A DNA stretch of 14,985 nucleotides from an uncultured Candidatus Altimarinota bacterium. GTDB lineage: Bacteria; Patescibacteriota; Gracilibacteria; CAIRYL01. The stretch covers positions 1 through 14,985 of the forward strand of contig CAMZLA010000063.1 of the NCBI GenBank assembly GCA_947311665.1. Reading direction: 5' to 3'. Of this stretch, positions 2 to 2,365 are shown one piece after another (the first letter of the stretch is position 1; the number at the start of each line of letters is the position of its first letter). The position numbers were made by a program, and so were the translations under genes. Under the pieces are notes generated by a model, which saw only the letters and a program-made list of their open reading frames with translations, did no database searches and was not told where the DNA came from.

Positions 2-2365
2 TTTGATCCAGAAAAAGAAAGTGTTTGGGACAAAAATTGGGGATATGGAGATATAAAAAAAACTAATTTTTATAATAGATCAGTAAATCTTTTAACAGAA
101 AAAAATTTTATACAATGGCTTCCTACCAAAGAAAATTTCAAATTTTTTGGAAAGGAATTTAATAATGAAGCAAAAAATAAATTTGAAAAATGGACACGAG
201 ATTTTCATGCTATATGGGTAAAAATTCTGCAAACAAAATATAAAGAACAAGATCTGCAAACAAAATTATCAGAAACAAATAATGATAAAAAATCAAAAAT
301 TTCTGTAGAACTCTGGAAAACACTTGAAACAGACCTTAAAAATAAAATAGAAAATTTTGTATATATTTCTTCTTCTCATAAAAAAGGGAAACAAATAAAA
401 ATTAATCTTTTTCATCAGGAATTTCTGAATATTCCAGATATAACACAAATTTTTAGAGCCATTGAATTACTCGAAGCATATTTAGCACTTGTTCTTGAAA
501 ATACGGATAGTGATTTAAAAAAATTTCGTGAAGCAAAAAATAGCTTTGAATCACTGAAAAAACGAAAACAAAAAAACACTTCTATCTTTTTTGAAAAATT
601 TAATATTTCTCCAAAATCGATAGAATTAGATGAAAAAGAAAATCAAGAATTTAAGCAACGAAATCAATCACTTATAATAAAAACATCAGAAAATAAATTG
701 ATGCTTATCTTTGATTTTTCTGGCGATGCTATTAGTTTTGAAATAGATGAAGAAAATATAAAACAAATACATCTTATTTCTTCTGAAAAAACAGCATTAA
801 AAAACTCAGAAATTTCTAAATCTTTTTTAGAGAATTATAAATGCATAGGGAAAACCGTATTGGTAGAAAATCAAAAAAAAGATAAAGAAAAAAAAATGGG
901 AAAAGAAAATTTTTGCCTTAAAACACTTCATCATTTTAAAGTCTATATTTTAAAAGAACTTCCAAAAACAACGGTTCTTTTAGATATTATTTTAGCAGAT
1001 AATAGACTTAAAAATATTGGAGAAGTAAAGAAATCAGCAAAAACTATTTTTCAAGGAGAAACTGCATATCATCAAAAACTTAAAAGAGAACTTATAAAAA
1101 ACTTTTTTGAAAGTAGTTGGGAAGAAAACCTTGCAGAATTAGAAAAAACTGAACCATATCTCATTTCATCAGCACAACTTTTTTGGCGACGAAAAGAAGA
1201 AAAACTCAAACATCTTTCTAAACCTTCACTTAAAAAAAACAAAGACAGGTATAGTCATGTAGAATTTCATATCATTACAGAAAAAGCAATATTAAAAAAT
1301 CAACAATATAAACAACGCCATCCAGAAAATTTAAATGAGTTACAAAAAGATGCTCGCTATATTTTAGCATTTGACCCAGGACTAAATAACCCGTGTACTG
1401 CTGCATTATGGGATATAAAAGAGAAAAAATTTGATATAAAATTTTCTAAAAAGATAACAGATTTAGGACATAAACTAGCGGAAAAACTAGAAAAAGAAAA
1501 CTCAAAAAATTTACAAAAAATAAAAACTTCTCGTGTTTTTGGAAAAGGAAAGAAAAATATAAATGAAATCCGAAAAAAAGGGTTACAAAATATTGTAGCA
1601 GAAATTGTTTCATATATATCAGATAAAAATGAGATAGATGTAAAATCTGAAAAAGTAATGATTATAATGGGAGATGGAAAAGAGAGCATAGATAAGCATG
1701 TCAAAAATAATTTTAAACGAGCAGAGCAAGCCTTTTTTGATAAACTTGCACAAAAACTTTCAGAAATGGGTGTTCTAGAAGGTGTATTTGAAACAAAATA
1801 TGCAACCAAAAAAGAAAAAGAAAAAAACTTTTCTGGATTATTAAAAATAGTAAATGAAGAAAATTCTTCTCATATTTGCTATGAATGTAACCATAAACAA
1901 AGCCCAAAATATGGAGAAGAATTTATAAAAGAATTAGAAGATTCTAAGTTTTTTGAACAAGAATTTAAAAAAAATGAAATGATTATTCCTATAAAAAATT
2001 GGGAAAAAAAAGAAGAAGTAAAACCAGAAAAAATATTTTCATCAGAAAGTCTCAAAAAAATTCACCCAAAACCAGAGTGGAAAAATGGAAAAAATAAAGA
2101 AATAACACTTCGAGAAAAATGGGAAGAATGTTTTATTGATGAGAATGATAAAATACGAGAAATATCTGAACAGCAACGAATGCTAAAAAACTTTTATTTC
2201 TGGTTTTTTGGTGGAACAGAAATAACTAAAAAAGGGAAAAAAGGAAAAACTTGGGATATGCATACCAGTTTAGAAGAGTTTGTATGTGCCAATTGTGAAA
2301 TGATTCAAAATAATGATATGAATGCAGCCAAAAATATTGTTAAGTTTTATATTAAGGAAAAGTAA
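2..2365 (+). CDS. Cas12-like (type V) RNA-guided nuclease, C-terminal 787 residues; 5' end outside window
   Basis: The reading frame is open from base 2 to the TAA at 2363-2365, so the gene starts left of the window. Residue numbers here count from base 2. Around residues 416-424 a stretch RYSHVEFHI resembles the end of the Cas12a WED domain, 35 residues before the RuvC-I aspartate, a spacing like Cas12a. RuvC-I is ILAFDPG with D458. The RuvC-II strand is VMIIMGDGKES (552-562), where the expected Glu is Met/Gly. A candidate replacement is E597 in VFETKYATK. Zinc ligands are C626/C629 and C762/C765, and RuvC-III is NNDMNAAKNI with D772. No HNH motif is seen. Family knowledge: such proteins cleave DNA with one RuvC site under a guide RNA. 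The size is far above a normal TnpB (about 400 residues). The Cas12 class call is firm, the subtype unknown. Base composition matches the neighbours. An ORF finder would wrongly start it at TTG 698. Confidence 0.82.
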   Translation, partial: FDPEKESVWDKNWGYGDIKKTNFYNRSVNLLTEKNFIQWLPTKENFKFFGKEFNNEAKNKFEKWTRDFHAIWVKILQTKYKEQDLQTKLSETNNDKKSKISVELWKTLETDLKNKIENFVYISSSHKKGKQIKINLFHQEFLNIPDITQIFRAIELLEAYLALVLENTDSDLKKFREAKNSFESLKKRKQKNTSIFFEKFNISPKSIELDEKENQEFKQRNQSLIIKTSENKLMLIFDFSGDAISFEIDEENIKQIHLISSEKTALKNSEISKSFLENYKCIGKTVLVENQKKDKEKKMGKENFCLKTLHHFKVYILKELPKTTVLLDIILADNRLKNIGEVKKSAKTIFQGETAYHQKLKRELIKNFFESSWEENLAELEKTEPYLISSAQLFWRRKEEKLKHLSKPSLKKNKDRYSHVEFHIITEKAILKNQQYKQRHPENLNELQKDARYILAFDPGLNNPCTAALWDIKEKKFDIKFSKKITDLGHKLAEKLEKENSKNLQKIKTSRVFGKGKKNINEIRKKGLQNIVAEIVSYISDKNEIDVKSEKVMIIMGDGKESIDKHVKNNFKRAEQAFFDKLAQKLSEMGVLEGVFETKYATKKEKEKNFSGLLKIVNEENSSHICYECNHKQSPKYGEEFIKELEDSKFFEQEFKKNEMIIPIKNWEKKEEVKPEKIFSSESLKKIHPKPEWKNGKNKEITLREKWEECFIDENDKIREISEQQRMLKNFYFWFFGGTEITKKGKKGKTWDMHTSLEEFVCANCEMIQNNDMNAAKNIVKFYIKEK

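Follow-up and report, generated by a model that had tools for sequence, protein, structure and literature searches.

A strongly diverged Cas12-like protein with a candidate catalytic glutamate at the position described for Fanzors

The Cas12-like gene and its genomic context

The DNA analysed here (the window) is 14,985 nt long and represents the entire contig C63 of the draft genome G000, which comprises 841,694 bases in 124 contigs with a completeness of 81.9. At its left edge lies a gene for a Cas12-like protein (2..2365, + strand), recognised by its open frame and by the Pfam TNB zinc ribbon. The 787 residues encoded here lack the N-terminus: the stop codon is located at 2365, and the frame is open on the 5' side. 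As the window covers the whole contig, the left edge of the gene corresponds to an assembly break. Comparison of the first bases of the contig with the other G000 contigs gave short matches only; the one closest to a contig end measures 20 bases and lies on C20. The gene has a GC content of 0.258 and a GC3 of 0.135, and its codon-use distance is 0.070, compared to 0.042–0.125 in the neighbouring genes. GC content and codon use thus fit the nine neighbouring genes tested. The genes of the window can be read without TGA as a residue, and glutamate makes up 11.7% of the residues of the Cas12-like protein.

On its 3' side, the gene is followed by a PRA-PH/MazG-like gene, a GtrA-glycosyltransferase, two tRNAs and a desulfoferrodoxin-like gene. 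Further downstream, a RecN-like gene (with SMC_N below its cut-off), a HEAT-repeat protein and RuvA are encoded, and the window also contains genes for an SLH/CAP protein, a pyridine-nucleotide oxidoreductase, IspD/IspF, a UPP synthase and a DXP synthase. No transposase was detected downstream of the Cas12-like gene in the window, and neither a CRISPR array nor cas4-cas1-cas2 was found beside it on the 3' side. The CRISPR repeat type of G000 gave no match in the window at up to three mismatches. Both gene content and repeat search agree with the original prediction that the downstream region is ordinary chromosome devoid of a CRISPR array. The MazG–GtrA pair is present in three of the four other genomes of the same genus. 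In these three genomes sufS-, gyrA- and mscS-like genes (named by eye) are located upstream of the pair, indicating that the Cas12-like gene is absent from that place.

Motifs and the RuvC active site

The motifs of the protein are all encoded on the + strand and follow the order of Cas12a. A WED-end F-H motif (F422-H423, 1265..1270) is located 35 residues before the RuvC-I aspartate. This aspartate belongs to a DPG motif (D458-P459-G460, 1373..1381). The RuvC-II site corresponds to M556-G557-D558-G559 (1667..1678), where glycine G557 occupies the position expected for the canonical glutamate. Two consecutive glutamates, E619 and E620 (1856..1861), precede the first cysteine pair of the zinc ribbon (C626xxC629, 1877..1888). 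The second pair (C762xxC765, 2285..2296), covered by Pfam TNB, is separated from the first by an insertion of 132 residues (1889..2284), located where large Cas12 proteins carry their Nuc/TSL domain. The RuvC-III aspartate D772 (2315..2317) aligns with that of the TnpB protein InsQ. Altogether, the protein reads as DPG x158 E x6 CxxC x132 CxxC x6 D.

The canonical RuvC-II position was assigned to G557 by both hhalign and hmmsearch (the latter with a negative domain score and a match that is not significant), and to E550 by MAFFT. Two alignments out of three thus put glycine there, and the protein seems to lack the canonical glutamate. E550 was judged less likely to be this glutamate, because it lies before the hydrophobic strand and because the two profile methods disagree with it. 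By its position six residues before C626, E619 is a candidate for a relocated catalytic glutamate, with the spacing ExxxxxxCxxC published for Fanzors. The apparent loss of the canonical glutamate and the presence of E619 at the Fanzor spacing both appear to go beyond what was originally predicted. Two structural models of the protein were obtained; both were poor and not decisive for the active site.

These features bear on whether the gene is functional. The contig ends inside it, and the genome G003 of the same genus harbours what is left of a Cas12a-like gene, short and interrupted by stops, together with three scattered repeats, so that a decaying, functionless remnant of a Cas12 gene has to be considered. 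Such a remnant seems very improbable in view of 787 codons free of stops, a codon use like that of the neighbours and motifs that are still in order.

Family assignment and search for relatives

The TNB zinc ribbon (PF07282) was the sole family scoring above its curated cut-off (28.3 vs 26.3 bits). PADLOC returned two matches only, neither of them longer than 29 residues and both with E-values near 0.003, and no family was assigned by NCBIfam or PHROGs. The Cas12a models of PADLOC, Pfam and NCBIfam did not match the protein. Searches of PDB sequences with the whole protein and with three pieces of it recovered no Cas12 subtype, the only match being LaTranC with an E-value of 1.7 over 27 residues. 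The TnpB protein InsQ of E. coli could be aligned to residues 755–781 (37%, score 30.1), above 61 shuffled or reversed copies (at most 22.7) and 44 other frames (at most 26.0). Judged by these sequence controls, the RuvC and zinc-ribbon motifs exceed chance. A RuvC-I aspartate within DxG, a RuvC-III aspartate and a TNB zinc ribbon, features of the TnpB/Cas12 RuvC superfamily, are all present. Hence, open frame, Pfam TNB and motifs above controls bear out the predicted Cas12-like nuclease frame of at least 787 residues. Its description as a type V-like effector that cannot be given a subtype is supported by PADLOC, NCBIfam, PHROGs and PDB: profile searches of the available 787 residues, Pfam included, pointed to no known Cas12 subtype.

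No relative of the protein was recovered from 5.8 billion proteins. The protein searches yielded 7,994, 529 and 1,042 candidates, and in the first of them only those sharing most words were scored. As a relative must share five-residue words with the query, a distant one could be missed. At the genome level, the gene was found in its own genome only among 192 relatives, 353 genomes of the class and 379 genomes of the phylum (overlapping sets). One match in the class genome G313 (E-value of 0.0057 over 91 residues) contained an internal stop and was rejected as a relative. Scans of genome contigs and viral contigs with the protein, and tblastn against phages and plasmids, did not reveal any relative either. 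Viral contigs were also scanned with a Fanzor-like motif and with Cas12a-like alignments, and nothing was found.

Comparison with Cas12a-like proteins of the class

The PADLOC Cas12a model matched 17 of the 353 class genomes, G000 not being among them. Many of the Cas12a-like genes of the class are open only when TGA is read as a residue. For comparison, 19 candidate proteins were considered; one of them (L061), whose longest frame is MutL-like, was left out of the column counts, giving 18 aligned proteins. A hhalign profile made of 14 near-full-length Cas12a-like proteins aligned to residues 520–631 of the Cas12-like protein with a score of 43.6 and a probability of 38%. Controls stayed below this score, with at most 26.8 for 61 shuffled or reversed copies and at most 28.3 for 44 further frames of G000 and its relatives. 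When the profile was split, six shorter Cas12a-like proteins gave 34.5 (reached by none of 61 controls), four other Cas12a-like proteins 25.9 (reached by one) and four V-A proteins 17.2 (reached by 32). The similarity thus points to the divergent Cas12a-like proteins, and is modest and local. Residues 1–440 scored 12.2, below many controls, which gives no support to a Cas12a-like REC/WED part.

The spacing of 35 residues between H423 and D458, predicted to be Cas12a-like, recurs in three of four V-A Cas12a proteins fetched from the class; in the fourth it is 41. The F-H motif was not found in seven other class proteins, in two of which the pattern also missed RuvC-I. The idea that Cas12a lacks the zinc-binding module had to be corrected with regard to Cas12a-like proteins, since CxxC occurs at that place in 13 of the 19 class candidates. 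Altogether, the Cas12-like protein shares with Cas12a (V-A) and the Cas12a-like proteins of the class the order of F-H, RuvC-I, RuvC-II, zinc site and RuvC-III, the spacing of 35 (three of four V-A proteins), the local profile match at residues 520–631 and, with some of them, a glutamate in the E619 column. It differs from them by an N-terminal half that cannot be aligned, by the apparent loss of the canonical glutamate and by the lack of a Cas12a profile match. It also displays DPG in place of DRG, DKG or DIG: DPG occurs in none of the 16 class Cas12a-like proteins covering the site. Within the family, the protein likely belongs on the Cas12a side.

At the canonical RuvC-II position, glutamate is present in 16 of the 18 class proteins and arginine in the other two (L035 and L047). 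The E619 column holds a glutamate in four of the 18 (L030, L031, L048 and L055), all of which have kept the canonical one. A two-glutamate intermediate is therefore on offer; by the same token, a glutamate in this column is on its own no evidence of function.

The two arginine-bearing proteins are encoded in genomes G151 (L047:1456-4569, + strand) and G252 (L035:1411-4566, + strand), with TGA read as glycine. They are 54% identical and break off at an identical position immediately ahead of the zinc ribbon. In both cases a NAGPA (phosphodiester-glycosidase) gene follows. Judging from their sequences, they look like Cas12a proteins that have been kept in a nuclease-dead, truncated form.

Comparison with Fanzors and proposed activity

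The available sections of PMC10711439, on the origins of Fanzors, describe an alternative glutamate, namely the E in ExxxxxxCxxC, for Fanzors and related TnpB proteins. Combined with DPG, it constitutes a Fanzor fingerprint found in less than 1% of TnpB-family homologs. In the pattern given there, ExxxxxxCxxC follows DPG by 120–160 residues, the cysteine pairs are 12–18 residues apart, and an aspartate lies 4–8 residues after the second CxxC. The Cas12-like protein shares the DPG of RuvC-I (D458-P459-G460), E619 at 158 residues after DPG and six before C626, and D772 at six residues after C765. Each published element is present with the exception of the zinc-finger loop length, which is 132 residues instead of 12–18. 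The protein further differs from Fanzors and pro-Fanzor TnpB by its size of at least 787 residues and by the lack of a visible transposase; it is set beside Fanzors by the published pattern and not by sequence. Of 280 distinct frames of at least 200 residues, taken from the window and the fetched loci, this gene alone contains a relaxed fingerprint (DPG, 100–200 residues, E x6 CxxC).

A TnpB- or Fanzor-like mobile-element protein that carries a large insertion and takes its guide from an omega RNA instead of a CRISPR array would account for the fingerprint and for the C-terminal similarity to TnpB and LaTranC. It would also fit a window without array or cas gene and the absence of the gene from this place in three genomes of the same genus. 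We consider this origin improbable. The protein has at least 787 residues, no transposase is located on the downstream side, and the profile similarity at residues 520–631 is to Cas12a-like proteins, in a comparison that held no Fanzor or alternative-glutamate TnpB sequences.

Our preferred reading, possible though somewhat short of an even chance, is that of a strongly diverged Cas12-like protein which would bind DNA under RNA guidance and likely cut it by means of a glutamate moved to the Fanzor position. It is favoured by the motifs and their spacing, by the local profile similarity to Cas12a-like proteins and by a Cas12a-type CRISPR array on another contig of G000. The catalytic glutamate would have been transferred from the RuvC-II strand, where G557 is now found, to E619; either E619 or E620 would complete the metal site with D458 and D772, so that cutting would probably proceed through D458, E619 and D772. 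A two-glutamate ancestor, as represented by the four class proteins mentioned above, could have led to this arrangement by losing the canonical glutamate. This interpretation rests on one N-terminally incomplete sequence without relatives, in which residues 1–440 match nothing. Given the glutamate content of the protein (11.7%) and the occurrence of a glutamate in the E619 column next to the canonical one elsewhere, E619 may also mean nothing.

The main rival is binding without cutting, for which type V offers strong precedent. The canonical glutamate being gone, the protein would be a nuclease-inactive Cas12 effector whose RNA-guided DNA binding blocks transcription, as Cas12m and Cas12c do. 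According to the available sections of PMC12669027, RuvC inactivation has repeatedly arisen in type V, and those of PMC11013384 report that Cas12m with H-D-D, N-D-D and D-E-D sites binds dsDNA without cutting it. RuvC-inactivated effectors such as Cas12m, Cas12c and others share with the Cas12-like protein an altered canonical D-E-D triad, and the truncated, arginine-bearing proteins of L035 and L047 point in the same direction within the class. However, neither of the two RuvC aspartates nor any of the four zinc-ribbon cysteines has been lost here, and the Fanzor position holds a glutamate. Cas12m also differs by its size of about 600 residues and its H-D-D, N-D-D or D-E-D site (same sections of PMC11013384), as opposed to D-(G)-D with a possible alternative glutamate here. 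An inactive effector is thus a serious candidate, to which we would give roughly one chance in three.

The available parts of the literature searched (PMC10711439, PMC10432273, PMC11423790, PMC12669027 and PMC11013384) contain no case of a Cas12 whose glutamate has been relocated; the main TnpB/Cas12 diversity survey (Altae-Tran et al., 2023) is known to us through citation only, so that such cases may be in print. If the glutamate has indeed moved, a Cas12-sized protein with the Fanzor arrangement would show how this shift can arise. It would also provide a second, separate case for testing whether the shift removes trans-cleavage; a possible reduction of ssDNA trans-cleavage is suggested in the available sections of PMC10711439.

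A CRISPR array as possible guide source

A repeat search in G000 was seeded with the three scattered repeats near the Cas12a-like remnant of G003. A 23-base repeat core was recovered in seven perfect copies, six on contig C115 and one on C40, and the reversed pattern gave none. The C115 repeat is 36 nt long and ends in ATTTCTACTTTTGTAGAT. Its end folds as a short hairpin of the Cas12a type with -4.8 kcal/mol, a stability also reached by 16 of 200 shuffles. The array comes after a formyltransferase-like gene (named by eye), and its leader aligns with the leader located beyond cas2 in G004, a genome of the same genus of which another contig carries Cas12a-like, cas4 and cas1 genes. Comparison of five C115 spacers with the fetched loci produced matches to C115 itself and to one 17-base stretch only.

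The position of an array to the left of the gene, considered necessary in the original prediction unless the protein works without one nearby, was not shown; the Cas12a-type array is on C115, with no link to the gene. In G000, at its completeness of 81.9, cas1 was not found, nor did the PADLOC model match a Cas12a there; a search with the Cas12a-like profile, run without a positive control, was empty. The C115 array may belong to a Cas12a encoded in the fifth of the genome that is missing. Under our preferred reading, crRNAs of this array would serve the Cas12-like protein in trans. Taken one step further, the protein could be the first representative of a new lineage within type V, namely a CRISPR-sized Cas12 effector with an independent move of the glutamate to the Fanzor position via a two-glutamate stage, as still seen in Cas12a-like proteins of the class, and using a Cas12a-type array in trans. 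This more specific proposal is rather unlikely.

Several observations were made around these repeats. On C115 (L077:3173-3553), two facing CRISPR arrays with the same repeat share a common palindromic terminal repeat, the 19-bp stem of which folds with -23.2 kcal/mol (none of 200 shuffles folds as well). A near-copy of this palindromic repeat (-22.4 kcal/mol) is located at the right end of C40 (L078:5111-5158). The remnant of G003 (contig C25, L061:3719-5479) is a Cas12a-like C-terminus that has decayed and contains stops; together with its three scattered CRISPR repeats, it is flanked by purE- and mutL-like genes (named by eye). In G004 (contig C76, L014:1242-2330), two PemK/MazF-like frames (by eye), one of which has a frame break, are located between the Cas12a-like gene and cas4, and a similar hairpin-like stretch precedes each of them.
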